DNA of 64,000 nt from Paracoccaceae bacterium Fryx2 (lineage in GTDB: Bacteria > Pseudomonadota > Alphaproteobacteria > Rhodobacterales > Rhodobacteraceae), in NCBI GenBank assembly GCA_032334235.1, contig JAVSGI010000005.1:1488001-1552000 (forward strand), written 5' to 3'. Shown piece by piece: positions 26,340 through 63,251 of this stretch. A model generated the notes under the pieces. That model did no database searches and was not told the DNA's origin. It saw only the letters and a program-made list of their open reading frames with translations. The first letter of the stretch is position 1; every line of letters begins with the position of its first letter. The translations under genes and the position numbers were made by a program.

Positions 26340-28490
26340 CGCTTGCGCCCCCCCCTTGTGGTCATGACGAAGACCATCGCGATGATCACCGACAGCAGCG
26401 TCAGCCCCAGCAGGATGATGGTGAAAAGCAGCGGCGACCACGAGGCATAGGTTCCCACGATGAAGCGGATGCTGGACAGGCGCAACGGTTCCAGCAGCAT
26501 GGGCGGCACGGATGCCGGGCGCCAGCTTTGCCAGGTGCCGTCCTCGGCCAGAATCGACAGCCGGCCGGCCGGACCTCCCGGCACCTGCCCTGCGGCGGCA
26601 AGAAGGCCGGCAGCCTCGCCCGGCGAAACGGTCGGCCCCAGCACCAGCATCAGGTCGCCCGGAGCCTCGGCGTCGGGCTGCATCAGGATCATGCGGCCCG
26701 AGCGGCCCTGCAACCAGTCCGGCAGCGGCGGGTCGCCGGGATGGGCAAGCGCCAGCACCCCGCCCCACATCGCCTGAAGCCGCCGGGTCAGCCAGCCCAT
26801 GTCGATCAGCGGGGCATCGGGGCTGGCCTCGGGGGCGTCGGCCGTGGCCACGGGCGGCTGCAGCACCGCCTCCAGCAGGCCGCGACCGAGGTCGAGATCG
26901 GACGACCGCAGCAGCCCGGCCTCGGGCGCCGTCAGCACGCGCAGGGTAGCGGGCGGGCCGGGCAGCGGATCGGACGGCAGTGCCACGACCATCGGCAGCA
27001 GCGCCGCGCCGGAGAGGCCCGCGCGGGGATCGTCGGCGCCACCCGACACCGAGGTGCCGCGCAGCCGGTCCAGCACGGTTTCAAGCCCGGGGAACTGCAT
27101 CCGGGGCGAAACCGGCACCTCGAGCGTCGAGGCGGCGAGGATGCGCAGCATCGGGTCTTCGCGCAGCGGGCAAGGCAGATCGGGCGGATCGCCGGGGATG
27201 ATGGCCTCGAAGGTCAGCAGGTTGACGCCGGGCTGCATCAGCGACGCCTTGAAGCCCACCGGAAGCGCGGGCTGCACCGCGCCGCCCTGGCGGTCGAGCG
27301 GCAACAGCCGCACCGTGGTGCCGTTGACCTTGACCAGCAGCAGCGCGCCTGTCCCCAGGTCCTCGCCAAAGCCGTAAAGCAGCGTCAGTTCCGCAGCCTG
27401 CGGCCCCAGCACAAGCCAGTCCTGCGGCAGGCGGAACGCGATGTCGTGCCGGATGTAGTGGCCGAAATCGGCGGTGTCGCCGCGCCCGAGCGCGGAGAGC
27501 GGCACCACGTCGCCCGGCGCCAGCGTCGGCACCCCGGCGGCGGGTGGCGGCGGTGGCAGCAGGGCGGCAAGATCGGGGACGGCCCCGCCCGCGCCCAGCA
27601 CGACGCGCAGCACCAGCGACCCGTCGCCGCCGCGCACCAGGTCGGCCGATGGGGCAGCCCCGGCCAGCACGGTGATCCGCGCCAGATCGGCGCCCGAACC
27701 GGCCGGTTCCCACAGGCCCGCGACGCGCAGCGGAACTTCGGGCCGGGCCACCATCCGCGCCGCCCGCAGCGCGATCTGCTGCACCAGCGCCGGGTCGGCA
27801 TCGGGCGCGGCGCGGATCGTCAGCCCGCCGGGACGCGACGCCTGTTCGATCAGCAGGCCCGGAAAATCGGTCTCGCGGAAATCGGTCAGGCCGGGCGGCA
27901 GGGTCAGGCCGCTGGCGGCCAGATCGACCTCCACCCACAGCGCAAAGCTGGCCTCGGGGCCGCAGTAGATGCGGTGGTGCAGCGCGCTTTCGATGCGCAG
28001 CCGGTTTGCCCCCGGCACCAGCGCCGCCGCGGGCAGCAGCACGGTCTGGAACCCGTCGAACGCCTGCGGCACCACCGGGTCCAGCGGCACGTCATTCACG
28101 ATCACCCGCAGGGCAGACCGTTCGGGCAGCACGTTGATGGCGGCGCGCAGGCTCAGCGCCAGTTCGGTCGGCACCAGCCCCTCGGGCAGGAACAGCGTCA
28201 GGTCGGCGGCATCCTGTTCGCCGTTCAGGCGCAGGATGCTGGCGGCGCCCTTGCCGATCAGCGGCAGGCGCTGCGGCGCGGGGGGGGGCGGGGGCGGCGG
28301 CGGGCGCCGCAGCCGCCCGGGCGCCGAATTCCATCAGGCCCACGGTGTCGGCGGCGGCGGGGGCGTCGGGCAGGGCCCGTTCGTCCGCCGGAATCTCGAT
28401 CCGGGGCGACGGGATGTCCTGCGCCCGCACGGCGCCCGCCACGAGGGCGAGCATCGCGGCGAGCGCGACCAGGCGCGCGCGCCGGGTCAT
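26336..28490 (-). pseudogene. bcsB: Cellulose synthase regulatory subunit BcsB, one-base frameshift
   Basis: Periplasmic, membrane-anchored partner of BcsA. The correct start is ATG 28490 (overlapping the bcsA stop as ATGA), giving a signal peptide (MTRRARLVALAAMLALVAGA). This frame runs to a run of nine C (minus strand; 28280-28288) in a Pro/Ala-rich linker and then leaves BcsB. The downstream frame reads PQRLPLIGKGAASILRLNGE and continues through the carbohydrate-binding domains to a C-terminal anchor (FTIILLGLTLLSVIIAMVFV) at 26336. Removing one C would restore a 717-aa protein of normal BcsB length. The lesion may be a real mutation, a slippage switch or a sequencing error. Confidence 0.88.
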
Positions 28491-30841
28491 GCCGTGACCT
28501 TCCACGGCCGGACCTTGCCATCGGAACCGTCGAAGCCCGGATCGGGCGCGTCCAGGTCGAGGTGTTCGGGTTCGACGCCGAAGGCCAGCAGGTGCGCGGC
28601 CTTGGGACGCCGGGTTTCCGACATGGACGCGCGGGCGCGGCGCCCCGGTTCGCGGATGAAATCGGCGATCACCGAGGGCAGCACCTTGAACGCCAGCGAC
28701 AGCGCATAGCCGAAGCCGGCGAACATGCCCTTGCGGCGCCGGGTGCTTTCGCGGATCGTGCGCCAGATGTCGCTGTCGCCGAAGATCAGGAAGGCCACCG
28801 CCTCGCGCGTGATCATGGGCTGATCCGGGCGCAGCATCAGCCCGACGATCATGCCTTCCGGCCCCTGCCGCACGCTGCGCACGGTGCCCAGCACCGGCGT
28901 CTGAAGGTGCGGCGCATCAGGGAAGCGGGGGGTGAAGGAAAAGCTCTGCCCCGGCACGATCGGCGGGGCGGCGGCATCCCTGGAGCCGGGGGCGACCAGA
29001 ATCCGCACGCCGCTGGTCGAGGCGTCAAGGATGGTGGCGGCCATTTCGGTGGCGGCATCCTGCGGGCGGACGGTGGCGGGCACGCGCAGGTCGACCCGCG
29101 GCGAGGCGCGGCGCTGCTGCTTTTCCGACACCGCGCCCCAGGCGATCGACACCAGCAGGAAGTTGAACACCGCCCAGCCGCCCACCACGATCAGCACCGA
29201 ATGGTCGCCCGGGAACATCACCCAGCGCACCACCAGCGCCACCACCCCGGCCAGCATCAGACCGAACAGCAGGGTCAGCGGCCCGTGGATCGGCGAGATG
29301 TAATCCTCCTCCAGCGTCTCGTCCTTGGCGGTCACGTTGAACTTGGCGGCCCGTGGCGACAGGAAGGTCTTGATCACCGCCTTGGCCAGATAGGGGGCCT
29401 GCGCCACCTCGTAGATTTCCGAGATCAGCGGCCATCGGAACCGGGCGTAAAGCGCGTTCTGCACCAGATAGCCCACCGCAAGGTAGCTGAGCATGTAGGC
29501 CAGCACGTCCTCGTAGGTCGAGACGAAGATCTGGATGCCGAAGAACAGATAGACCAGCGGAGCCAGCAGGAAGGCCAGCCGGATCAGCGGAAACAGCCAG
29601 AAGCTCATCGAGTTGATGTAGCACAGCCGTTGCGCAAAGCGCAGACCGCTGCGGAACAGCGGGTTCTTCAGCAGCAGCATCTGCATCATGCCGGTGGCCC
29701 AGCGCCCGCGCTGTTCGATGAAGGTGGCGAAGGTTTCGGGCTGCAGGCCCGCGATCATCGCGCGGTCGATGTAAAGGCTTTTCCACCCCGCCGCGTGCAT
29801 CTCCAGCGCGGTTTCGGCATCCTCGGTGATGGTCTCGCCGGCAAAGCCGCCGACACTGTCGAGCGCCGAGCGGCGCAGCACGGCGGCAGAGCCGCAGAAG
29901 AAGGTGCCCCCCCAGCGGTCCAGCCCGCGGTGGATGAAGCTGTAGAACATCTCGTTTTCCGGCGGGCAGCGTTCGGACAGGCCGAGGTTGCGCTGGATCG
30001 GATCCTTGTTGATGAAGAAGTGCGGCGTCTGCACCAGGTAGAGCTTGGGGTCATCGACGAAGTATCCGACGGTCCGCGCCAGGAAATCGCGGCTGGGCAC
30101 GTGGTCGGCGTCGAACACCACGACAAGCTGGCCATCGAGCTGTTCCAGCGCGGCGCTCATGTTGCCGGCCTTGGCATGTTCGTTGCGCTCCCGCGTGGAG
30201 TAGCGCACGCCCAGGTCGCGACACAGCGCCTGCAGCGTGGCGCGCCGTTCGCGCGACCGGGCGGCCAGTTCGGGGTCGGACGAATTGCAGCGCTGGTCGG
30301 TGCCGCCGTCATCGCACAGCACCACCCGGCGCTTGGCGCGCGGATAGATCATGTTCTTGGCAGCCGCCAGCGTGACGCTCAGCATCTCGGGCGGCTCGTT
30401 GTAGGACGGGATCAGGATGTCGACGGTCGGCAGATCCTCGGGCAGCACCTTGGCGGGAAAGCGGCGCGTCGTCGGATCGGCGGTGATGAAGCCGTTGAGG
30501 AAGAACAGCAGGATCGAATAGCTTTCCACCGCAAACAGCAGCACCGCGATCCCGAAGGACAGCGACAGCGACGGCGGGGGCAGCGTCTCCAGCAGCCGCC
30601 AGATCCAATAGCGCATCACGATCACGCTGGAAATGCCCAGCAGCAGGAACCGCGCGCCGAGGTTGGCCGCAAAGGGCTTCAGCGCCGCGACGCAGACCAC
30701 CGCGACCAGCCCCAGCAGCGCCTGCCCGCTGGTCGAGGTGGGCGCGGAGGCCAGCAGCACCACCGGAACCAGCACCGCGAACCAGGCCAGCAGCACGGGC
30801 GTGTTGGCGGTGGCCGAGCGGCGGAACGGGGCGCCGGTCAT
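28487..30841 (-). CDS. bcsA: Cellulose synthase catalytic subunit (UDP-forming)
   Basis: 784-aa inner-membrane GT2 synthase that polymerises and translocates beta-1,4-glucan from UDP-glucose. Visible: two N-terminal membrane helices, then VVLCDDGGTDQR, the DxD region VVFDADHVPSRDF, the TED motif ETITEDAETALEMHAAGW and QQRGRW-type motif EQRGRWATGMMQMLL. Further membrane helices follow, then a C-terminal PilZ domain (RRASPRVDLRVPA plus DASTSGVRI) that binds c-di-GMP. The whole order closely resembles R. sphaeroides BcsA. It follows bcsN and overlaps bcsB by four bases. Confidence 0.97.
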   Translation of the reverse strand: MTGAPFRRSATANTPVLLAWFAVLVPVVLLASAPTSTSGQALLGLVAVVCVAALKPFAANLGARFLLLGISSVIVMRYWIWRLLETLPPPSLSLSFGIAVLLFAVESYSILLFFLNGFITADPTTRRFPAKVLPEDLPTVDILIPSYNEPPEMLSVTLAAAKNMIYPRAKRRVVLCDDGGTDQRCNSSDPELAARSRERRATLQALCRDLGVRYSTRERNEHAKAGNMSAALEQLDGQLVVVFDADHVPSRDFLARTVGYFVDDPKLYLVQTPHFFINKDPIQRNLGLSERCPPENEMFYSFIHRGLDRWGGTFFCGSAAVLRRSALDSVGGFAGETITEDAETALEMHAAGWKSLYIDRAMIAGLQPETFATFIEQRGRWATGMMQMLLLKNPLFRSGLRFAQRLCYINSMSFWLFPLIRLAFLLAPLVYLFFGIQIFVSTYEDVLAYMLSYLAVGYLVQNALYARFRWPLISEIYEVAQAPYLAKAVIKTFLSPRAAKFNVTAKDETLEEDYISPIHGPLTLLFGLMLAGVVALVVRWVMFPGDHSVLIVVGGWAVFNFLLVSIAWGAVSEKQQRRASPRVDLRVPATVRPQDAATEMAATILDASTSGVRILVAPGSRDAAAPPIVPGQSFSFTPRFPDAPHLQTPVLGTVRSVRQGPEGMIVGLMLRPDQPMITREAVAFLIFGDSDIWRTIRESTRRRKGMFAGFGYALSLAFKVLPSVIADFIREPGRRARASMSETRRPKAAHLLAFGVEPEHLDLDAPDPGFDGSDGKVRPWKVTA

Positions 30842-30878: not shown

Positions 30879-31568
30879 TCATGGCGTGGGCCCTGCCAGC
30901 GGCGACAGCATCACCGTGCTGCGCGCCCCTGCCCCGACCCCGCCGCCCATCCGGGCTTCGAGCATCGGCGCCAGCGCCTCTTCGATGGACCCAAGCACGC
31001 AGTTGCGCAGCATCACGTCCATCACGTTGGCCCGGGCGGGCAGCATCCGGCTGCCGACCCCCAGCCTGCGCAGCGCCAGCACGCAGTTGGTCTGCGCCCC
31101 GCTGCGGTATTCCAGCCAGACATAGGGCCCCAGACTGTCGGAGCCGCTTTGCAGGTTGCTGTCGGACACGGTGCCGAAGGGCGACGGCGACCCGCCCGCG
31201 CGTTTCACGAACTCCTCCAGCCGGAAGGCGGGCACATCCTGCCCGTCGGTCACCCGCGCCAGCATCAGCAGGAAATTGTCGCCCCGCAGCGTGGTGTCGT
31301 TGGCAAGGCCCACGATCTGTTCGGTCTGGCCCGGAAGCCCGCGCTGGATGCCGATCAGCGCCAGCGGTTCGGTGGTCCAGATCGAGCCGACACGGATCTG
31401 CGAGAACGGCATGGCGGTTTGCAGCACCCCCCGCGACGGAGTTGCGACCGGGCCGGCCGGCAGGCAGGCCGCGAGCATCAGCCCGAGCCCCGCCACGACC
31501 AGCCCCTGCCGCACCAAACTGACAGGGCCGACCTTACGCTGCCCTGTTACGCACATACCTGACGCCAT
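30879..31568 (-). CDS. bcsN: Cellulose biosynthesis protein BcsN
   Basis: 229-aa probable lipoprotein (LVVAGLGLMLAACLPAG gives a lipobox with Cys near residue 35) of the BcsN family found with alphaproteobacterial cellulose operons. Recognisable blocks include NFLLMLARVTDGQDV and LGPYVWLEYRSGAQTNCVLALRRLG. Its biochemical role is not established. It is the first gene of the operon, 37 bases before bcsA. Starts at 31568 and 31556 are both possible; 31568 has a weak GGAA ribosome site. Confidence 0.8.
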   Translation of the reverse strand: MASGMCVTGQRKVGPVSLVRQGLVVAGLGLMLAACLPAGPVATPSRGVLQTAMPFSQIRVGSIWTTEPLALIGIQRGLPGQTEQIVGLANDTTLRGDNFLLMLARVTDGQDVPAFRLEEFVKRAGGSPSPFGTVSDSNLQSGSDSLGPYVWLEYRSGAQTNCVLALRRLGVGSRMLPARANVMDVMLRNCVLGSIEEALAPMLEARMGGGVGAGARSTVMLSPLAGPTP

Positions 31569-31910
31569 TTTCGTTCCGTATCATCATGATTGAGTCATGT
31601 CCATTCGGCCCGCCGGGAAGGCCCGCAGCACATTCTTCATATCGGACCCGCCGCCCCGCAGCAAGGCGCGGGACGACGCTTTGGTGCCGCCAGAGGTCGG
31701 GCAAGACAGAGATTTCGCGGAATGCGTGTGGCACCTGCCGATCGCCCGCGATGCCAGAGGGGGCGGGAACCGGGCCCGCCCCAAGGCCGACCGGACCGGC
31801 GCCCCGTGCCGCCGCCCGCCGTCGGGCAGCCTGCCGACCCTGCGGCCGACAGCCTTGCCCGCCCCCCCCAAGAAGGATCATCGGGATAAGGCGCGGGGGG
31901 CGGAACGGCT
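31569..31910. other. Intergenic region upstream of bcsN
   Basis: 342 bases between the pseudo-receiver gene stop and the bcsN start, both minus-strand. The part near bcsN is comparatively AT-rich ('catgattgagtcatg' at 31584-31598 contains a short dyad) and presumably carries the cellulose-operon promoter. The rest is GC-rich with chance open frames only. I see no convincing -35/-10 pair or gene. Confidence 0.55.
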
Positions 31911-32705
31911 TCAGATCAGGCTCACGACCAGCGCGATGATCCCGGTCCATGCCAGCACGCCCGAGGCTGCAACCGGCAGGATCCACCAGCCGCGCATCAG
32001 GGATCTGTCTTCGGCCTGATGCACCGTGAGGACAGGTGCGGCCTGCACCGGCGCAGCCGGACCCGAGCTTGCCGGCACGCCCAGGCCGACCTCGGCCAGC
32101 GCGCTGCGCAAGTCAAGACGGTATTCGGCGGGGGTGTCGCGCCCGGTTTCGCGCAGGGCGACCCGGATCATCGCGCCTTGCACCACTTCGGCAAACTGCG
32201 CGGCGGTGACATCGGCCGCCAGACGGCCGTCACACAGGTTCATCGCCTCGGCCGTGGTGTCGGTCGCGCCGAGCCCCCCGTCCACCAGGATGACCGGAAG
32301 CTGGCGCGACGCGTTCTTCAGGCGCAGGCACAGATCGAGGGTGCGCGCTTCATCGCCAAGAAAATCGGCGTCAACCACGCAGAAGTCGAAGCCCCCGGCG
32401 TTGCGCTCAAGCCATCCGGCGGGCAGCGTCGCCTCGGACTGGACCACGGCATGTGCGCCTATGTCCTTGATCCAGCCGCGCATCGCGGCGGCAAGCTTTT
32501 CGTCATTGCCGAGAATCAGCGCCGTGCCGCCGATCTGGCGCCCGGCGATCGGTTGCGGCCGTTCGTCGGTCAGGTCCGGAGTGGCCGGGCCAGGGCGGGG
32601 GAGGATGAAGTCGGGTGCTGTCGGCGGGACGCGCAGCACAGGCCGCCCGCGAGAGAACTCGGCAACGGTGCCCGTCGCGGGGCGTTGATCGAAGCTGTCC
32701 CGCAT
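31911..32705 (-). CDS. Receiver-like (pseudo-REC) protein with C-terminal membrane anchor
   Basis: 264-aa protein (279 aa if ATG 32750 is used). It has a Pro-rich leader, then a receiver-like alpha/beta fold: ALILGNDEKLAAAMRGWI (strand 1, lacking the usual acidic pair), FDFCVVDADFLGDEA (strand 3 with Asp), LPVILVDGG (strand 4), and no Lys-Pro loop near strand 5. The C terminus is one hydrophobic helix (WWILPVAASGVLAWTGIIAL), so it is probably membrane-tethered. Start 32705 is preferred because of AAAAGG nine bases upstream. It is paralogous to the protein at 32874 and adjoins the cellulose operon. Function unknown; control of cellulose synthesis is an inference from location. Confidence 0.7.
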   Translation of the reverse strand: MRDSFDQRPATGTVAEFSRGRPVLRVPPTAPDFILPRPGPATPDLTDERPQPIAGRQIGGTALILGNDEKLAAAMRGWIKDIGAHAVVQSEATLPAGWLERNAGGFDFCVVDADFLGDEARTLDLCLRLKNASRQLPVILVDGGLGATDTTAEAMNLCDGRLAADVTAAQFAEVVQGAMIRVALRETGRDTPAEYRLDLRSALAEVGLGVPASSGPAAPVQAAPVLTVHQAEDRSLMRGWWILPVAASGVLAWTGIIALVVSLI

Positions 32706-32782
32706 CGTCTGCAACCTTTTCCCGATTCGGCCACCCGCCGTAACCGACATGAGCCAGCAATAACATCTATCAGCAATTCATA

Positions 32783-32811
32783 CTATTATTTTGATACTTT
32801 TTAAATTGCAA
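32783..32811 (-). promoter_or_regulatory. Probable sigma-70-type promoter of the membrane pseudo-receiver gene
   Basis: In an AT-rich island unusual for this genome, the minus strand reads TTGCAA (32811-32806), 17 bases, then TAATAG (32788-32783). Transcription would begin about 70 bases before ATG 32705. This is the only clearly AT-rich promoter-like segment in the neighbourhood. Confidence 0.5.
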
Positions 32812-32873: not shown

Positions 32874-33371
32874 TCAGGCTTCGGGCGTGGGATGCACGGC
32901 GCAAAGGTAGTGGCGGTGATTGTCGCGGGCGACCACCAGACCCAGCTTGAACGCGGCGAACGAGACCGGATTGCGCAGGGTCACGTCGCAGACCATCATG
33001 CATTCGGTGGTCAGATCGCTGCGCGAAACGAAAGAAGACAGCAGAATCACCGGCACGTCAGGGGCGACGCGGCGGACCTCGAAGCCGAAATCGACGATCG
33101 CTTCGGCGTCGCCCAGATCGTCGCAATCCACCACGGCCAGCGCCGGGCCGCGCCCCGGCCGGGCCAGCCAGCCCAGCGCGACATCTGCCTGCGCCGTCAT
33201 GACCCCGAGCCCGCCGAAGCTGTCGATCCATATGCTGACCTGCCGCATGTCCTGGACGCCCCCCCCCACCAGCAGCACGGTGACGCCCGTCAGGTCGGGC
33301 ACCGGATCGGGACCGAAATCGCGCGATGGCACAACGGCCGCCCGCCCCGGCGCCTGCGGCAGATCCGGCAT
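32874..33371 (-). CDS. Receiver-like (pseudo-REC) protein, 5' end displaced by IS copy 1
   Basis: The remaining frame gives 165 aa from an internal ATG at 33371. The fold is receiver-like: VTVLLVGGGVQDM (acidic pair missing), ALAVVDCDDLGDAEA (Asp retained), PVILLSSF, and CDVTLRNPVS where the usual Lys-Pro is Arg-Asn-Pro. The same frame continues upstream without a stop to the IS boundary at 33393. The codons on the other side of the IS (34724-34703) join in frame, so the original gene had about 178 codons and its own ribosome site. Whether the truncated gene is still expressed is unknown. Paralogue of the gene at 31911. Confidence 0.7.
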   Translation of the reverse strand: MPDLPQAPGRAAVVPSRDFGPDPVPDLTGVTVLLVGGGVQDMRQVSIWIDSFGGLGVMTAQADVALGWLARPGRGPALAVVDCDDLGDAEAIVDFGFEVRRVAPDVPVILLSSFVSRSDLTTECMMVCDVTLRNPVSFAAFKLGLVVARDNHRHYLCAVHPTPEA

Positions 33372-33388: not shown

Positions 33389-34706
33389 TTCTGGGCACCT
33401 CGATTTTTGACTGTTTTCGCGGCAACGGCATAGCAGGTTCTGCCCGAAGCGCGGCAGCGACCTTCAGCTGACCGATTGTTGCCTTGGTTTTTATGATCTG
33501 CCGCCCATTTCGCCTCGCGGACCTTCGGTTCAGGGCCGTTTTTAGCGATGCGCGGGGCGATCTGCGTCCTTGGCCGACCGTTTTCAGGCTGGGTGCGGGT
33601 TGATGCGACCCAGTTGGCCGAGGCGGCGCATGTTGTAGGCGAGATTCTTCATGCCGACTTTGGCCTTCGCCCGCACCAAGCCGATGGTGCGCACCAGGGT
33701 GCCGCCCATGTCGTTGGCCTGCGCGCCGAAGATGTGCTCAACCCGGACCCGCACGGTGGATTTGGTGCGGTTGCTGCCCTTGGCCTGGTCGGTCAGCGGC
33801 TTGCCCCGATTGCCCTTGCGGTGGATGTGGCTTTTCAGTTTTAAGGCGCGGAGTTTGGCCTCCATCTCCTCGGACCGATAAGCAGCATCCGCCCACACGC
33901 CAGACCCGGTGTTGCCCTGCATCAGCAGATGATCCACTGCCTGGCTGTCATGCACAGCGGCGTCGGTGACGTGGTAGCGCCGGACCAGCTTATGCGTGCG
34001 GTCCACATTCACATGGTTCTTGTAGCCGTAGTGGCTCTTGCCGTGCTTTTTCGTCCAACGTGCGTCCACATCCTTTTGCACCCGTTTCGCTGGCTTATCA
34101 GCCCAATCCTCGGGGACCTCGCCCTTCTTGATCGTTGCGTTTTCATCGCGCGTGTTGTGATTGCGCGGCACCGGCACGATGGAGGCGTCCAGGATCTGAC
34201 CGCCGCGCGCAATGTAGCCCCGCCGCGCCAAATGACCGTCAAACAACCCGAACAACTCCTCCACCTTGCCGGCCTGCGCCAGCGCATCGCGATACAGCCA
34301 CACCGTCTTGGCGTCGGGCACCCGGTCACCAAGGCCCAACCCCAGGAAGCGCATAAAGGAAAGCCGGTCGCGGACCTGATATTCGATCTGATCATCCGAC
34401 AGGTTGTAAAGCGCGCTCAGAACCAGCGTCTTGAACATCAGCACCGCATCTATCGGCTTGCGCCCCGCGCGGGACTTGCGATCCGCAACAGGCTTGCGCC
34501 AGACCCGCTCAAGAGCCGGACGAAACTCCTCCCACGGCACGACGGCATCAATTTCGACCAGCGGATCCCTTTTGGCATCGAGGCTCGCGTAACGGTCCGA
34601 AAGATCGAAAAAACCCATCTGCGCCATCGTTGCATCCCCAATGCCAGTTCACTGTCTCACCATACCGAAGTGCGGGGGATGGGGCAATTTATAGAGGTGC
34701 CCTTCT
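33389..34706 (-). mobile_element. IS5-family insertion sequence, copy 1 (1310 bp with TTCT target duplication)
   Basis: The element spans 33393-34702. Ends are inverted: GGGCACCTCGAT at the left and the complement of GGGCACCTCTAT at the right. Four-base direct repeats TTCT (33389-33392 and 34703-34706) mark the insertion. It carries one transposase gene. All 1310 bases appear identical to copy 2 at 36464-37773, judged by matching sequence at a constant offset of 3071, so transposition was recent. It interrupts the pseudo-receiver gene at 32874. Confidence 0.95.
33584..34627 (-). CDS. IS5-family transposase (copy 1)
   Basis: 347-aa DDE transposase with an N-terminal DUF772-type helical domain (RKPIDAVLMFKTLVLSALYN, then DRLSFMRFLGL). 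The catalytic triad is seen in GGQILDASIVPVPR (first Asp), GVWADAAYRSEEME (second Asp) and RVRVEHIFGAQ (Glu of the YREK-like region). It is intact, with a normal start MAQMGFFDLSDRYASLD, and is the only gene of the element. It should still be able to mobilise both copies. Confidence 0.96.
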   Translation of the reverse strand: MAQMGFFDLSDRYASLDAKRDPLVEIDAVVPWEEFRPALERVWRKPVADRKSRAGRKPIDAVLMFKTLVLSALYNLSDDQIEYQVRDRLSFMRFLGLGLGDRVPDAKTVWLYRDALAQAGKVEELFGLFDGHLARRGYIARGGQILDASIVPVPRNHNTRDENATIKKGEVPEDWADKPAKRVQKDVDARWTKKHGKSHYGYKNHVNVDRTHKLVRRYHVTDAAVHDSQAVDHLLMQGNTGSGVWADAAYRSEEMEAKLRALKLKSHIHRKGNRGKPLTDQAKGSNRTKSTVRVRVEHIFGAQANDMGGTLVRTIGLVRAKAKVGMKNLAYNMRRLGQLGRINPHPA

Positions 34707-34738: not shown

Positions 34739-35376
34739 GATGACGGTCAGGCCCGCCATGACGCGAACGCCATTCCTGACAACTCCAGCGTCCGCCCTTC
34801 GCGGCATGTTGTCAATTTGATCTATTTGGGTCGGCGGAAGTCCGCGAATCGGCTCCGGTCGGGGGCCTCGGGCGGCCAAATCATCAGAACGTGATCCGGA
34901 ATGCGTCATATCGCCCGATGCGCCCATTGACCCTGCCCGGAAAAGGCTGCGACCCTGTGCGCGGCCTGAAGAATCGGGGGGTGTCACGGGGCGTTTCGTC
35001 GGCTTCCGACTGATTCGCTGCGGCCACGAAACCCGGCTTTGCCGCATGACGCCCGAAAGGCGGCCCCCGTGGCTGTCTCAGGGCGGGCATGACGGGGAGG
35101 CCGCCGAATAATTCCGCCGTCACCGGAACTTCGTCGGGGCAGCAACGTTGGTACCGATGACATGACTTACACGGCTGATGCCGTCCCTTTCCGGCAGGGC
35201 CCGGGCAGCCGACGCACACCAATCAGAAACATGCCTCCTGGAACGGGCTCCGGCCCGTCAGAGGCAAAGGCCTGCAGGTAGAAGATGAAGCGATCCCTTA
35301 CCCCCGCCGCTGCCGTGGCATCCCCCCAGCGCGACCGTGGCGTGACGATGGCCGTCTTGCTTCTGCAGGTGACCCG
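34739..35376. other. Intergenic region between the split receiver gene and the GAF protein
   Basis: About 640 bases. It should contain the promoter of the interrupted minus-strand gene (left) and that of the plus-strand GAF protein (right). Open frames on both strands (for example minus 34884-35222) have no recognisable domain. A moderately AT-rich stretch at about 34810-34835 ('gttgtcaatttgatctattt') is a promoter candidate. Nothing else is supported. Confidence 0.55.
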
Positions 35377-36390
35377 ATGAACCGGACGGATGACGAACAG
35401 GGCAGGCTTGCCGCGCTGCTGCGCTACGAGGTGCTGGATACCGGGCCGGAGGAGGAGTTCGACATCGCCAGCGAACTGGCGCGGTCGATCTTTGCCGTGC
35501 CGATGGCCGCCATCGTGCTGATCGACCGCACAAGGCTGTGGTTCAAGTCGCGCCCCGGATTGCTGATCGCCCATACCCCGCGCGAAACCTCGTTCTGCGC
35601 CCAGACGATCCGCCAGATGGGCGTGATGGTGATCGAGGATGCGGCGAACGATCCGCGGTTCCGCAACAATCCCTTTGTGACCGGTTCGCCCGGCATCCGC
35701 TGCTACATGGGCGCGCCCCTGACGACCCCCGACGGCTACAACGTCGGCACCTTCTGCATCCTGGACACCATCCCGAGGGATTTCAGCGACATCGACCGCG
35801 AAGTGATGGCCGGTCTGGCCCGGCTGACGGTGTCGCATCTGGAACTGCGCATGATCTCGAACGAGGATGTGCAGACCGGGGCGACCTCGCGCCGGGGGTT
35901 CCTGAAGGTGCTTGACGACGAGCTTGAAAAGTGCAGGCGCTACCGGCTTGCGGCGTCGCTCGTGGTGTTCGACATCGACCGGCTGGGCGAACTGAACGCG
36001 GCCCACGGGCAGGCGGCGGCCAACGCGGTGATCGCGGCCGCCGCAAAGGCGGTGCGCGACGTGCTGCGCAAGGGCGACACGCTGGGCCGGACCGGCGGCG
36101 GCAAGTTCGCCGTGCTGCTGACCGGCGCGCATGGCGAGGAAGCCCTGCAGGCCGCCGAACGCTTCCGCAGCGAGATTGCGACTGCCAGGGTTGCCGAAGA
36201 CCCGTCGCTGTCCTTTACCGCAAGCTTCGGCGTTCTGCCGATGTCGGAGGCCTTCAACTCGGCGCAGGACTGGCTGGCGGCGGCGCAGAGTCTGGTGGAG
36301 CGCGCCAAGGATGCCGGCCGCAACCGCAGCGTGATGGACACCAGGGTGTCGGCCGGGCCCGCGACGACCAACCGGAACCGGATGAACTGA
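35377..36390 (+). CDS. GAF domain + degenerate GGDEF domain protein
   Basis: 337-aa cytoplasmic signalling protein. Residues ~1-160 form a GAF domain (RLAALLRYEVLDTGPEEEFD, then TSFCAQTIR, then GAPLTTPDGYNVGTFCILD). Residues ~170-325 form a GGDEF fold (LVVFDIDRLGELNAAHG, then FTASFGVLPM). The active-site motif is GGGKF instead of GG[D/E]EF (RTGGGKFAVLL), removing the metal-binding acidic residues, so cyclase activity is unlikely. It may sense GTP or c-di-GMP or act through its GAF ligand. Its position beside c-di-GMP-dependent cellulose synthesis suggests control of that pathway. It is bracketed by two IS copies. Confidence 0.88.
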   Translation: MNRTDDEQGRLAALLRYEVLDTGPEEEFDIASELARSIFAVPMAAIVLIDRTRLWFKSRPGLLIAHTPRETSFCAQTIRQMGVMVIEDAANDPRFRNNPFVTGSPGIRCYMGAPLTTPDGYNVGTFCILDTIPRDFSDIDREVMAGLARLTVSHLELRMISNEDVQTGATSRRGFLKVLDDELEKCRRYRLAASLVVFDIDRLGELNAAHGQAAANAVIAAAAKAVRDVLRKGDTLGRTGGGKFAVLLTGAHGEEALQAAERFRSEIATARVAEDPSLSFTASFGVLPMSEAFNSAQDWLAAAQSLVERAKDAGRNRSVMDTRVSAGPATTNRNRMN

Positions 36391-36459: not shown

Positions 36460-37777
36460 TTTAGGGCACCTCGATTTTTGACTGTTTTCGCGGCAACGGC
36501 ATAGCAGGTTCTGCCCGAAGCGCGGCAGCGACCTTCAGCTGACCGATTGTTGCCTTGGTTTTTATGATCTGCCGCCCATTTCGCCTCGCGGACCTTCGGT
36601 TCAGGGCCGTTTTTAGCGATGCGCGGGGCGATCTGCGTCCTTGGCCGACCGTTTTCAGGCTGGGTGCGGGTTGATGCGACCCAGTTGGCCGAGGCGGCGC
36701 ATGTTGTAGGCGAGATTCTTCATGCCGACTTTGGCCTTCGCCCGCACCAAGCCGATGGTGCGCACCAGGGTGCCGCCCATGTCGTTGGCCTGCGCGCCGA
36801 AGATGTGCTCAACCCGGACCCGCACGGTGGATTTGGTGCGGTTGCTGCCCTTGGCCTGGTCGGTCAGCGGCTTGCCCCGATTGCCCTTGCGGTGGATGTG
36901 GCTTTTCAGTTTTAAGGCGCGGAGTTTGGCCTCCATCTCCTCGGACCGATAAGCAGCATCCGCCCACACGCCAGACCCGGTGTTGCCCTGCATCAGCAGA
37001 TGATCCACTGCCTGGCTGTCATGCACAGCGGCGTCGGTGACGTGGTAGCGCCGGACCAGCTTATGCGTGCGGTCCACATTCACATGGTTCTTGTAGCCGT
37101 AGTGGCTCTTGCCGTGCTTTTTCGTCCAACGTGCGTCCACATCCTTTTGCACCCGTTTCGCTGGCTTATCAGCCCAATCCTCGGGGACCTCGCCCTTCTT
37201 GATCGTTGCGTTTTCATCGCGCGTGTTGTGATTGCGCGGCACCGGCACGATGGAGGCGTCCAGGATCTGACCGCCGCGCGCAATGTAGCCCCGCCGCGCC
37301 AAATGACCGTCAAACAACCCGAACAACTCCTCCACCTTGCCGGCCTGCGCCAGCGCATCGCGATACAGCCACACCGTCTTGGCGTCGGGCACCCGGTCAC
37401 CAAGGCCCAACCCCAGGAAGCGCATAAAGGAAAGCCGGTCGCGGACCTGATATTCGATCTGATCATCCGACAGGTTGTAAAGCGCGCTCAGAACCAGCGT
37501 CTTGAACATCAGCACCGCATCTATCGGCTTGCGCCCCGCGCGGGACTTGCGATCCGCAACAGGCTTGCGCCAGACCCGCTCAAGAGCCGGACGAAACTCC
37601 TCCCACGGCACGACGGCATCAATTTCGACCAGCGGATCCCTTTTGGCATCGAGGCTCGCGTAACGGTCCGAAAGATCGAAAAAACCCATCTGCGCCATCG
37701 TTGCATCCCCAATGCCAGTTCACTGTCTCACCATACCGAAGTGCGGGGGATGGGGCAATTTATAGAGGTGCCCTTTA
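36460..37777 (-). mobile_element. IS5-family insertion sequence, copy 2 (1310 bp with TTTA target duplication)
   Basis: Spans 36464-37773, with the same GGGCACCTC ends as copy 1 and in the same orientation. The direct repeats flanking it are TTTA (36460-36463 and 37774-37777), different from those of copy 1, so the two copies inserted independently rather than as one composite transposon. It lies 73 bases downstream of the GAF/GGDEF gene stop and before the small winged-helix genes. Confidence 0.95.
36655..37698 (-). CDS. IS5-family transposase (copy 2)
   Basis: 347-aa DDE transposase identical to the copy at 33584-34627 over the whole protein, with the same Asp-Asp-Glu motifs and no lesion. 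Direct repetition of this 1.3-kb sequence provides a substrate for homologous recombination that would delete the intervening GAF/GGDEF gene. Confidence 0.96.
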   Translation of the reverse strand: MAQMGFFDLSDRYASLDAKRDPLVEIDAVVPWEEFRPALERVWRKPVADRKSRAGRKPIDAVLMFKTLVLSALYNLSDDQIEYQVRDRLSFMRFLGLGLGDRVPDAKTVWLYRDALAQAGKVEELFGLFDGHLARRGYIARGGQILDASIVPVPRNHNTRDENATIKKGEVPEDWADKPAKRVQKDVDARWTKKHGKSHYGYKNHVNVDRTHKLVRRYHVTDAAVHDSQAVDHLLMQGNTGSGVWADAAYRSEEMEAKLRALKLKSHIHRKGNRGKPLTDQAKGSNRTKSTVRVRVEHIFGAQANDMGGTLVRTIGLVRAKAKVGMKNLAYNMRRLGQLGRINPHPA

Positions 37778-37928: not shown

Positions 37929-38243
37929 ATGTCGCAGATATTCGAGTATGTTGTCGAAGTTCGCCGGATGCTTACGACAATGGAGGCGGAGATCGGTCTT
38001 GACCGGCTCTCCGACAAGGAACGCGACGTGCTCTATGCCATTTCGCGGCTGAGCGTCGGCGGTTTGCCGGTGCGGTCGGAGGCGATCCGGGTTCACCCGC
38101 TGGTGGCAGGCATGACCCATCCGACCTACCACCGCGCCCTGCGCGCCCTGGTGGAAAAGGGCTGCATCTCCCATGCGCCGAATACCAAGGCGGGGTCATA
38201 CATCATTGATGACAGCAGGTTGTCCAGCCTTGATCAGGGCTGA
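37929..38243 (+). CDS. Small winged-helix DNA-binding protein (paralogue A)
   Basis: 104-aa protein: an N-terminal helix (EYVVEVRRMLTTMEAEIGLD), then a compact winged helix (LSDKERDVLYAISRLSVGGL, PVRSEAIRVHPLV, PTYHRALRALVEKG) with a beta-wing (ISHAPNTKAGSYIID). It resembles MarR-like winged helices but is too short for a ligand or dimer domain beyond the N-terminal helix. A ribosome site (gctgaggg) precedes ATG 37929. About 45 percent of the core residues are shared with the protein at 38373. IS copy 2 ends 155 bases upstream and may have displaced its promoter. Probable regulator; target unknown. Confidence 0.75.
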   Translation: MSQIFEYVVEVRRMLTTMEAEIGLDRLSDKERDVLYAISRLSVGGLPVRSEAIRVHPLVAGMTHPTYHRALRALVEKGCISHAPNTKAGSYIIDDSRLSSLDQG

Positions 38244-38372
38244 AACCGCACCCGGGAGCCCCGGCCACGCCGGTGCCGCCCGGGCAGACAGGACGTGGCA
38301 GGCAGAACCGGACGGCCACCGCGGCCCGAGAGGCTGGCGATGAAGGGGGAGGGGGCGGTTCTCGACTGAAAG

Positions 38373-38669
38373 ATGATCAAGAAAGTGGAGAGAATCGCCC
38401 AGCTTCGAGAGCTCCTGCTGCGCATGGAAAGTGAACTCGGCCTTCTGGGGCTGACCCGTTTCGAGCGCGATCTGCTTTATGCCGTGCGCTCGCTGGCCCC
38501 CGACGGCGGGGAAGTGCGGTCCAGCGCGCTGCGCCGGCACAAGCTGGTCGAGACGATGACACAGCCCACCTTCCACCGTGCGCTGCGCGAACTGGTGGAT
38601 CAGGGCTATCTGCGCCGTGCCGAAGGCAGCCACGCCGCCTATTGCCTGGTTGCCCGCGACCCCCAGTAA
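38373..38669 (+). CDS. Small winged-helix DNA-binding protein (paralogue B)
   Basis: 98-aa protein paralogous to the preceding gene: helix IAQLRELLLRMESELGLLGL, winged helix LTRFERDLLYAVRSLAPDGG, EVRSSALRRHKLV, PTFHRALRELVDQGYL, wing AEGSHAAYCLV. The shared P-T-[FY]-H-R-A-L-R recognition-helix sequence suggests that both bind similar DNA. The ribosome site is weak (gaaag). Tandem duplication 129 bases apart, same strand. Location downstream of the GAF/GGDEF protein and the cellulose locus suggests a role in its regulation, which is only inference. Confidence 0.75.
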   Translation: MIKKVERIAQLRELLLRMESELGLLGLTRFERDLLYAVRSLAPDGGEVRSSALRRHKLVETMTQPTFHRALRELVDQGYLRRAEGSHAAYCLVARDPQ

Positions 38670-63046: not shown

Positions 63047-63251
63047 GCTGCCTCCGATAGGCGCAACATGGGGGGCCGGATGCGGCCTTGCCATATCGCG
63101 CTTGATTTTTATCGCCGTTTTGGCATGATTTTCACCGTGACAACAGGCTTTCTGACCGCCTCCTGTCCCCAGGCAGCCGGAATGATTGGAAAAACTGGGT
63201 GCACGCCCGCGGCATGTCGCCCCGGGAAGGACGGATGTAAGGAGATGCGGC

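Follow-up and report, generated by a model that had tools for sequence, protein, structure and literature searches.

Two small winged-helix proteins, mw1 and mw2, encoded in tandem near the cellulose (bcs) genes of Paracoccaceae bacterium Fryx2, are best read as a pair of regulators of biofilm and cellulose that would act through the palindrome TTRTCA-N3-TGAYAA, with two receiver-fold proteins (pseudo-receivers) and a presumably dead GGDEF protein as their input; the probability of this reading is put at about 0.6. In the window, the whole stretch of 64,000 nucleotides that was analysed, mw1 (104 aa) occupies 37929..38243 and mw2 (98 aa) 38373..38669, both on the plus strand; the two open reading frames lie where the original prediction had placed them. 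The proteins are 43% identical over 93 ungapped residues, a likeness that is not due to chance because BLASTP gives 1e-24 over that length, and they are the only mini winged-helix (mini-wHTH) copies in the host genome. Their recognition helices read THPTYHRALR in mw1 and TQPTFHRALR in mw2. The stretch P-T-[FY]-H-R-A-L-R, which had been singled out as common to the two, is indeed present in both, but its HRAL part is family-wide and not specific to the pair. Across 73 mini-wHTH members, only R69 and G23 are invariant.

The fold of mw2 was taken from an AlphaFold2 monomer model on the 73-row family alignment (mean pLDDT 90). The model has a long N-terminal helix (residues 2-21) followed by a winged helix, which bears out the architecture proposed earlier, and helix 64-76, carrying PTFHRALR, occupies the recognition position. 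No helix is modelled past the wing of the 98-residue chain, and the last three residues have pLDDT <50. A role of the extra N-terminal helix of mw1 and mw2 in dimerisation is plausible on this model. This layout, a winged helix with an additional helix in front of it, is also the predicted resemblance to the MarR family, in which the mw2 model aligns with BpsR of Bordetella (6pcp; Z 9.5, 91 residues, rmsd 4.4), a MarR protein controlling biofilm polysaccharide, and with E. coli MarR (3vb2; Z 8.7, 89 residues, rmsd 3.7), scores that several unrelated winged helices match. The MarR_2 model (PF12802) scores mw2 at 17.9 bits, short of its cut-off of 27, and no MarR match was listed for mw1. In MarR proteins, a C-terminal helix completes the dimer interface; by contrast, mw1 and mw2 are just 98-104 aa long, and the mw2 model is without this helix. 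In the comparison with solved structures, numerous generic, unrelated winged helices ranked equally, so no closest fold is claimed for mw2; the best match in a PDB sequence search had E 0.09.

No Pfam or NCBIfam model reaches its curated cut-off on mw1 or mw2, yet both belong to the mini-wHTH family defined here, whose profile matches them with E 4e-35 and 5e-34; both are themselves rows of the 73-row alignment. Of 394 Rhodobacteraceae genomes, drawn from the host's own family at one per genus, 79 have a member, a count given by both of the profiles used for searching. These genomes hold 101 places, counted as the sum of matches per genome; the 80 regions fetched contain 83 members and together with the window represent 85 of the 101, and 12 of the 85 rows were omitted from the alignment. 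Draws at higher rank recovered the family in 43 of 196 genomes of the order, all assigned to the host's family, and in two of 190 genomes of the class, one being the host and the other belonging to a different family. Four plasmid records have an mw2 match, while none matches psREC2, the second pseudo-receiver of the window, and viral contigs gave no relative. When the 73 members were scanned singly at E 1e-3, Pfam returned eight HTH_IclR, three MarR_2 and one HVO_A0261_N match (best 4.6e-5) and NCBIfam two models with one member each; neither library has an evident model of the family's own. The accessible part of the literature searched, which included PMC9756655 and few subscription journals, nowhere describes the family, the operator or the island.

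The usual companion of a mini-wHTH gene is a membrane protein of ~190 aa (consensus LPHGVRVLAAWLLGW), present within 600 bases in 58 of 80 loci (e.g., L041:9528-10097) and, in 53 of those 58, downstream on the same strand. One of three representatives weakly matches MASE1 (E 2e-4, below the cut-off); a MASE1-like nature is a lead only. A pseudo-receiver lies near the mini-wHTH gene in 10 of 80 loci. Because the membrane protein is the usual neighbour, a mini-wHTH gene per se is not tied to the island of pseudo-receivers and GAF-GGDEF protein. The co-occurrence suggested originally thus fails for the family at large, where mini-wHTH genes are common without the other components, but it holds for the tandem pair, which keeps them in both of the other genomes that carry it. 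The profile of the membrane protein has no match in the window or in the two loci of those genomes (L046 and L108). Elsewhere, translations suggest a YebC-like neighbour in L034, L035 and L036, and a LysE-like exporter in L037, L043 and L044.

Upstream of the mini-wHTH gene and on the opposite strand, 35 of 80 loci (e.g., L086:9162-9272) encode a candidate small RNA of ~100 nt, in which a conserved loop, GUGAGUGG, sits in a variable stem and is followed by an intrinsic terminator. Strict terminators occur on the sRNA strand in 21 of 34 loci, on the opposite strand in none of the 34, and 2-6 times when the sequences are shuffled; the terminator stem shows covariation in 8 of 10 pairs, and the loop stem scores a mean of 17.1, which none of 200 swapped-half controls matched (highest 15.3). 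The covariance model was built from 34 of the 35 positive loci (L047 matches in part), after two of 36 rows with the loop motif (L046 and L104) had been dropped from the alignment. Plasmids of Phaeobacter sp. G2 and Salipiger sp. CCB-MM3 likewise carry the sRNA next to their mini-wHTH gene. It was not found in the window, where the model is matched twice, weakly and only over its terminator end (E 0.015 and 1.9), nor in the host genome, where six matches have E 0.01 or worse, four of them spanning the model but only 41-82 nt long. In 18 short loci, nothing in Rfam reaches the gathering threshold; the best match at the place and on the strand of the sRNA is suhB/mmgR, with 26.2 bits vs 41, in L026.

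In the window, the pair keeps different company. A receiver-like protein with a C-terminal hydrophobic segment, psREC1 (31911..32750, minus strand), and a receiver-fold protein, psREC2 (32874..33371, minus strand), have no Pfam match to a receiver; their identification as pseudo-receivers is upheld by the predicted structure for psREC2 and by an alignment with psREC2 and ten homologues for psREC1. The psREC2 reading frame extends to 33431, and since the part above ~33392 belongs to an insertion sequence (IS), its start is put at 33371. The psREC2 model resembles the receiver domains of response regulators (best Foldseek E 1e-6; TM by target ~0.6-0.8 for single-domain receivers). It differs from them in lacking the helix between the last two strands, at the place of alpha4, and Response_reg (PF00072) touches only one of 12 psREC members, at E 0.066 and below the cut-off; the phosphorylation residues seem to be only partly retained. 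The GAF-GGDEF protein (35377..36390, plus strand) matches GGDEF (4.4e-25) and GAF (4.7e-14) in Pfam, as diguanylate cyclases do, but GGGKF replaces the GG[DE]EF signature in the alignment, confirming the degenerate motif noted earlier, and the protein is probably not a diguanylate cyclase. The signature is lost in all three GAF-GGDEF proteins linked to a pair (GPTSF and GNDTF in the other two), whereas among six GAF-GGDEF matches in bcs loci without a pair, the four that were aligned all read GGEEF.

Profile matches to psREC occur in 53 of 394 genomes, 17 of which, counted by hand, also have a mini-wHTH gene (~11 expected if independent). Twenty psREC loci (L142-L161) were inspected; two had no psREC gene call, and no mini-wHTH gene is among the genes listed beside the other 18. 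An obligate link between pseudo-receiver and mini-wHTH protein was dropped in view of these psREC loci without an adjacent mini-wHTH gene. Several psREC genes in L142-L161 adjoin genes whose translations look receiver- or histidine-kinase-like. Weak receiver matches near bcs in L118 and L125 were put aside, the latter being a CheY-like ORF.

Two identical IS copies on the minus strand, at 33393..34702 and 36464..37773, interrupt the island, and its parts are therefore neighbours but not contiguous. Each encodes a DDE transposase (347 aa in the first copy; seen in Pfam for the second, which lies between GAF-GGDEF and mw1), and each has a 4-bp target duplication of its own, TTCT and TTTA, respectively. 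These separate duplications rule out a composite transposon carrying GAF-GGDEF between the two IS. With the IS removed, bcs, psREC1 and psREC2 lie on the minus strand, and GAF-GGDEF, mw1 and mw2 diverge from them on the plus strand. The three-part island with duplicated components that had been proposed is accordingly broken in the window, but its gene set is conserved in two other genomes, both MAGs, making three pair genomes in all: G233 (locus L046) and G348 (locus L108). In both, GAF-GGDEF, mw1, mw2 and a pseudo-receiver follow each other on a single strand, and a 7TM-GGDEF gene, 49% identical between the two loci, diverges from GAF-GGDEF; in G348, bcs genes adjoin the island.

A first contig-wide search with the two window genes found no relative, and a search with the mw1 trio returned only the G233 and G348 contigs again (one MAG of Rhodobacteraceae and one of Rubellimicrobium sp.); the loci L046 and L176 are identical, and L177 has one tested 1-kb stretch in common with L108. 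In the tree, which was built on few alignment columns, mw1 of the three pair genomes forms one clade (support 96/94) and mw2 of G233 groups with that of G348 (98/92), while the window mw2 has no supported position. A third pair, in L081, with genes 2.1 kb apart, is taken as a separate duplication because its genes group by themselves.

The palindrome TTRTCA-N3-TGAYAA emerged from motif counting upstream of 85 mini-wHTH genes, where it is enriched: with at most one mismatch it occurs in 21 of the 85 upstream regions vs 0.25 in shuffles. The operator matrix was made from 34 sites in 59 upstream regions of membrane-protein loci only, with no pair locus among them. In the sRNA-bearing branch, which is largely the training set, 34 of 35 mini-wHTH genes have the motif upstream; in the other groups, the counts are 5/17, 3/18, 1/8 and 0/1, and none of the six pair genes has it directly upstream. 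The operator, if any, of loci without a membrane partner or pseudo-receiver may differ, since only 3 of 18 have the motif. Two loci outside the training set, on the Phaeobacter sp. G2 and Salipiger sp. CCB-MM3 plasmids, carry sites of 21.1 and 25.9 upstream of the family gene.

The same motif marks the island. The core TRTCAN3TGAYA with one mismatch occurs six times in the window vs 1.26 expected, a number reached in none of 100 shuffles, and matrix sites scoring at least 12 number four in the 64 kb of the window (shuffle mean 0.2), two in L046 (0.1) and four, two of them overlapping, in L108 (0.1). Three window sites are candidate operators of the island. GTATCATCATGATTG (31578..31592, score 12.6) lies 10 bp ahead of the point at which bcsN is annotated to start, and its score was reached in that gap by none of 1000 shuffles and none of 1000 permuted matrices. 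CTATTATTTTGATAC (32783..32797, 14.7) lies 33 bp upstream of psREC1 (0/1000 shuffles, 16/1000 permuted matrices), and TTGTCAATTTGATCT (34809..34823, 15.5) between psREC2 and GAF-GGDEF (1/1000 and 2/1000); the first IS now stands between this site and psREC2. In L046, sites of 19.1 and 18.5 precede 7TM-GGDEF and the pseudo-receiver; in L108, a site of 23.9 precedes the pseudo-receiver, one of 14.9 lies between the two GGDEF genes, and sites of 14.7 and 12.9 precede bcsN. Altogether, 8 of 14 island gaps in the three pair genomes have a site scoring at least 12, and the best scores sum to 113.8, whereas 300 shuffles gave no more than 3.3 and 300 matrices with permuted columns no more than 25.1, in a test that was not blind because the first scan had already shown matches there. 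Sites are absent from the window gaps between GAF-GGDEF and mw1, mw1 and mw2, and mw2 and rlmJ, and from two L108 gaps; the best score between GAF-GGDEF and mw1 in L046 is 8.9. Directly upstream of mw1 and mw2 in the window, the best scores are -6.7 and -10.6, and self-control of the pair in the host genome is unsupported, there being no site before either gene. One further operator-like site (63129-63143, 13.8), at the start of a gene whose translation reads as cold-shock-like, is probably due to chance.

To our knowledge, how Rhodobacteraceae decide on cellulose production is poorly known. The BcsA-BcsB complex of R. sphaeroides is a structural model for the synthase, and BcsA is activated by c-di-GMP. 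The gene at 28487..30841 (minus strand), named as in the original prediction, we take to be bcsA, encoding cellulose synthase; the bcsN-like gene upstream of it (30879..31568, minus strand), likewise named in the original prediction, has no Pfam match. BcsA homologues (E 1e-80 or better) are found in 27 of 394 genomes, host included. All 27 other bcs places were fetched, several on short contigs; 24 have a bcsN-like gene, and a single one, in G348, has the pair nearby. The bcsN promoter, which it had been suggested to check, carries a candidate operator of the type learned from unrelated loci: the best bcsN-proximal site scores 12.6 in the window and 14.7 in G348, and none of 23 other bcsN promoters exceeds 10.1 (highest in G051; for G091, 99 nt were scored). 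These values support, as a prediction, control of cellulose by the pair. The proposal of a local cellulose controller thus gains a predicted bcsN site in two of three pair genomes but not in the third, G233, whose bcsN promoter, one of the 23, scores 2.1. The arrangement recalls c-di-GMP-dependent cellulose regulation in that GGDEF-type proteins adjoin bcs and a candidate site precedes a diguanylate cyclase gene; it differs in that the control predicted here is transcriptional and exerted through the mini-wHTH family.

Predicted targets extend beyond the island. In the host genome, 159 core sites with at most one mismatch were counted vs 54 for the reversed pattern, six of them exact; many of the 159 are surely chance matches. 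Nine regions were fetched, around the six exact sites and three one-mismatch places chosen among the matches listed. The nearest host homologue of 7TM-GGDEF (47% identity) lies on contig C3, and a one-mismatch site scoring 16.1 begins 217 bp before the homologue match, where the genome-wide density predicts 0.006 sites per 217 bp; the homologous 7TM-GGDEF promoters of G233 and G348 also have a site. Among the nine regions, further sites precede the gene for an RTX-repeat protein (20.9; G000 C5:1420885, L173), a REC-LuxR regulator in a Flp-pilus region with RcpC/CpaB and Tad genes (20.4; C3:112927, L168) and a LuxR-type protein gene (17.0; C5:339817, L170). Together with the diguanylate cyclase, these candidate targets point to biofilm. 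Chance seems to account for the exact sites in L169 and L171, for the one that falls inside the cpaB ORF and for those of L174 and L175; L172 was put in neither group. In a separate locus, L072 (G266), candidate operators stand at 1020 and 5236 upstream of sugar transferase and Wzz/tyrosine-kinase genes, the two scores being 17.0 and 17.7, which suggests exopolysaccharide control; the mini-wHTH gene of that locus has no site (upstream best 8.0).

The model that best accommodates these observations takes mw1 and mw2 as the products of a duplication within a family of minimal winged-helix transcription factors found in Rhodobacteraceae. The two would dimerise through their extra N-terminal helix, each with itself or with the other, and in this form bind TTRTCA-N3-TGAYAA. 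What the data document are the family, the predicted fold, the conserved order of the genes, the degenerate GGDEF sites and the enrichment of the motif; binding, dimerisation, repression and signal input belong to the model. The link between protein and DNA is one we infer from the position of the sites, from the 34 of 35 sites in the sRNA-bearing branch and from the two of two unseen plasmid loci. Locally, the pair would control psREC1, psREC2/GAF-GGDEF and bcsN, and hence the cellulose genes; at a distance, it would also control biofilm genes, including the 7TM-GGDEF diguanylate cyclase on the other contig. At bcsN, the candidate site stands immediately in front of the annotated start, a position that points to repression. 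Input probably comes from the pseudo-receivers and from the GAF-GGDEF protein, presumably dead as an enzyme: both partners may pass a signal to the mini-wHTH proteins by binding a ligand or partner and thereby releasing or fixing them.

Alternatively, the pair may confine its control to the genes of its partners, which encode the pseudo-receivers and GGDEF proteins, with cellulose as a bystander next to them. The strongest island sites (23.9, 19.1 and 18.5) do stand at pseudo-receiver and GGDEF promoters, G233 retains the island with a bcsN promoter that has no site, and 26 of 27 other bcs loci, some with short flanks, have no pair. Yet the bcsN-proximal sites recur in two genera that share 66% identity in BcsA, and the site scores of 12.6 and 14.7 were reached in the bcsN gaps by 0/1000 and 5/1000 shuffles, which makes this restricted role rather unlikely, if a serious contender. 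A shade less probable is that another, shared regulator binds the palindrome and that the mini-wHTH genes are its targets, not the source of the binder. Binding by mini-wHTH proteins is predicted from sequence, the motif is absent upstream of many family members, and so short a palindrome also turns up elsewhere, with 10 sites of at least 12 in 679 kb of other loci vs 2 for the reversed matrix. Against such a regulator, bcsN sites track the pair (two of three pair genomes vs 0/22 others), the motif is near-constant in one branch, mostly of training loci, and was met at both unseen plasmid loci, and R69, one of the two invariant residues of the family, lies in the recognition helix.

Finally, the island could be decaying debris, its operon cut by the IS and its pair no longer functional in this host. 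IS copies do lie between GAF-GGDEF and mw1 and just upstream of psREC2, the genome has 41 full or partial matches to the island transposase, and the diguanylate cyclase encoded next to the island in both G233 and G348 has its nearest host homologue on another contig. Decay is nonetheless improbable given that the ORFs are still open and that sites are retained at bcsN, psREC1 and the distant cyclase.

The regulation of biofilm and cellulose by mw1 and mw2 through the palindrome, as preferred here, provides two candidate regulators, the precise position of a candidate operator in front of bcsN and a set of predicted targets. The analysis further delimits a mini-wHTH family that one fifth of the 394 sampled genera possess, with a candidate sRNA beside its commonest operon. 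A broader picture can be drawn tentatively, at slightly less than even odds: a transcription factor family undescribed in the libraries and papers searched may run the surface life of Rhodobacteraceae via TTRTCA-N3-TGAYAA. Its commonest unit would be a mini-wHTH protein and a membrane protein, often with a divergent sRNA, and in a rare branch the gene would have been duplicated, lost the membrane protein and the sRNA and been rewired to receiver-fold and dead GAF-GGDEF proteins, so that two proteins together switch cellulose, a diguanylate cyclase, Flp pili and an RTX protein.
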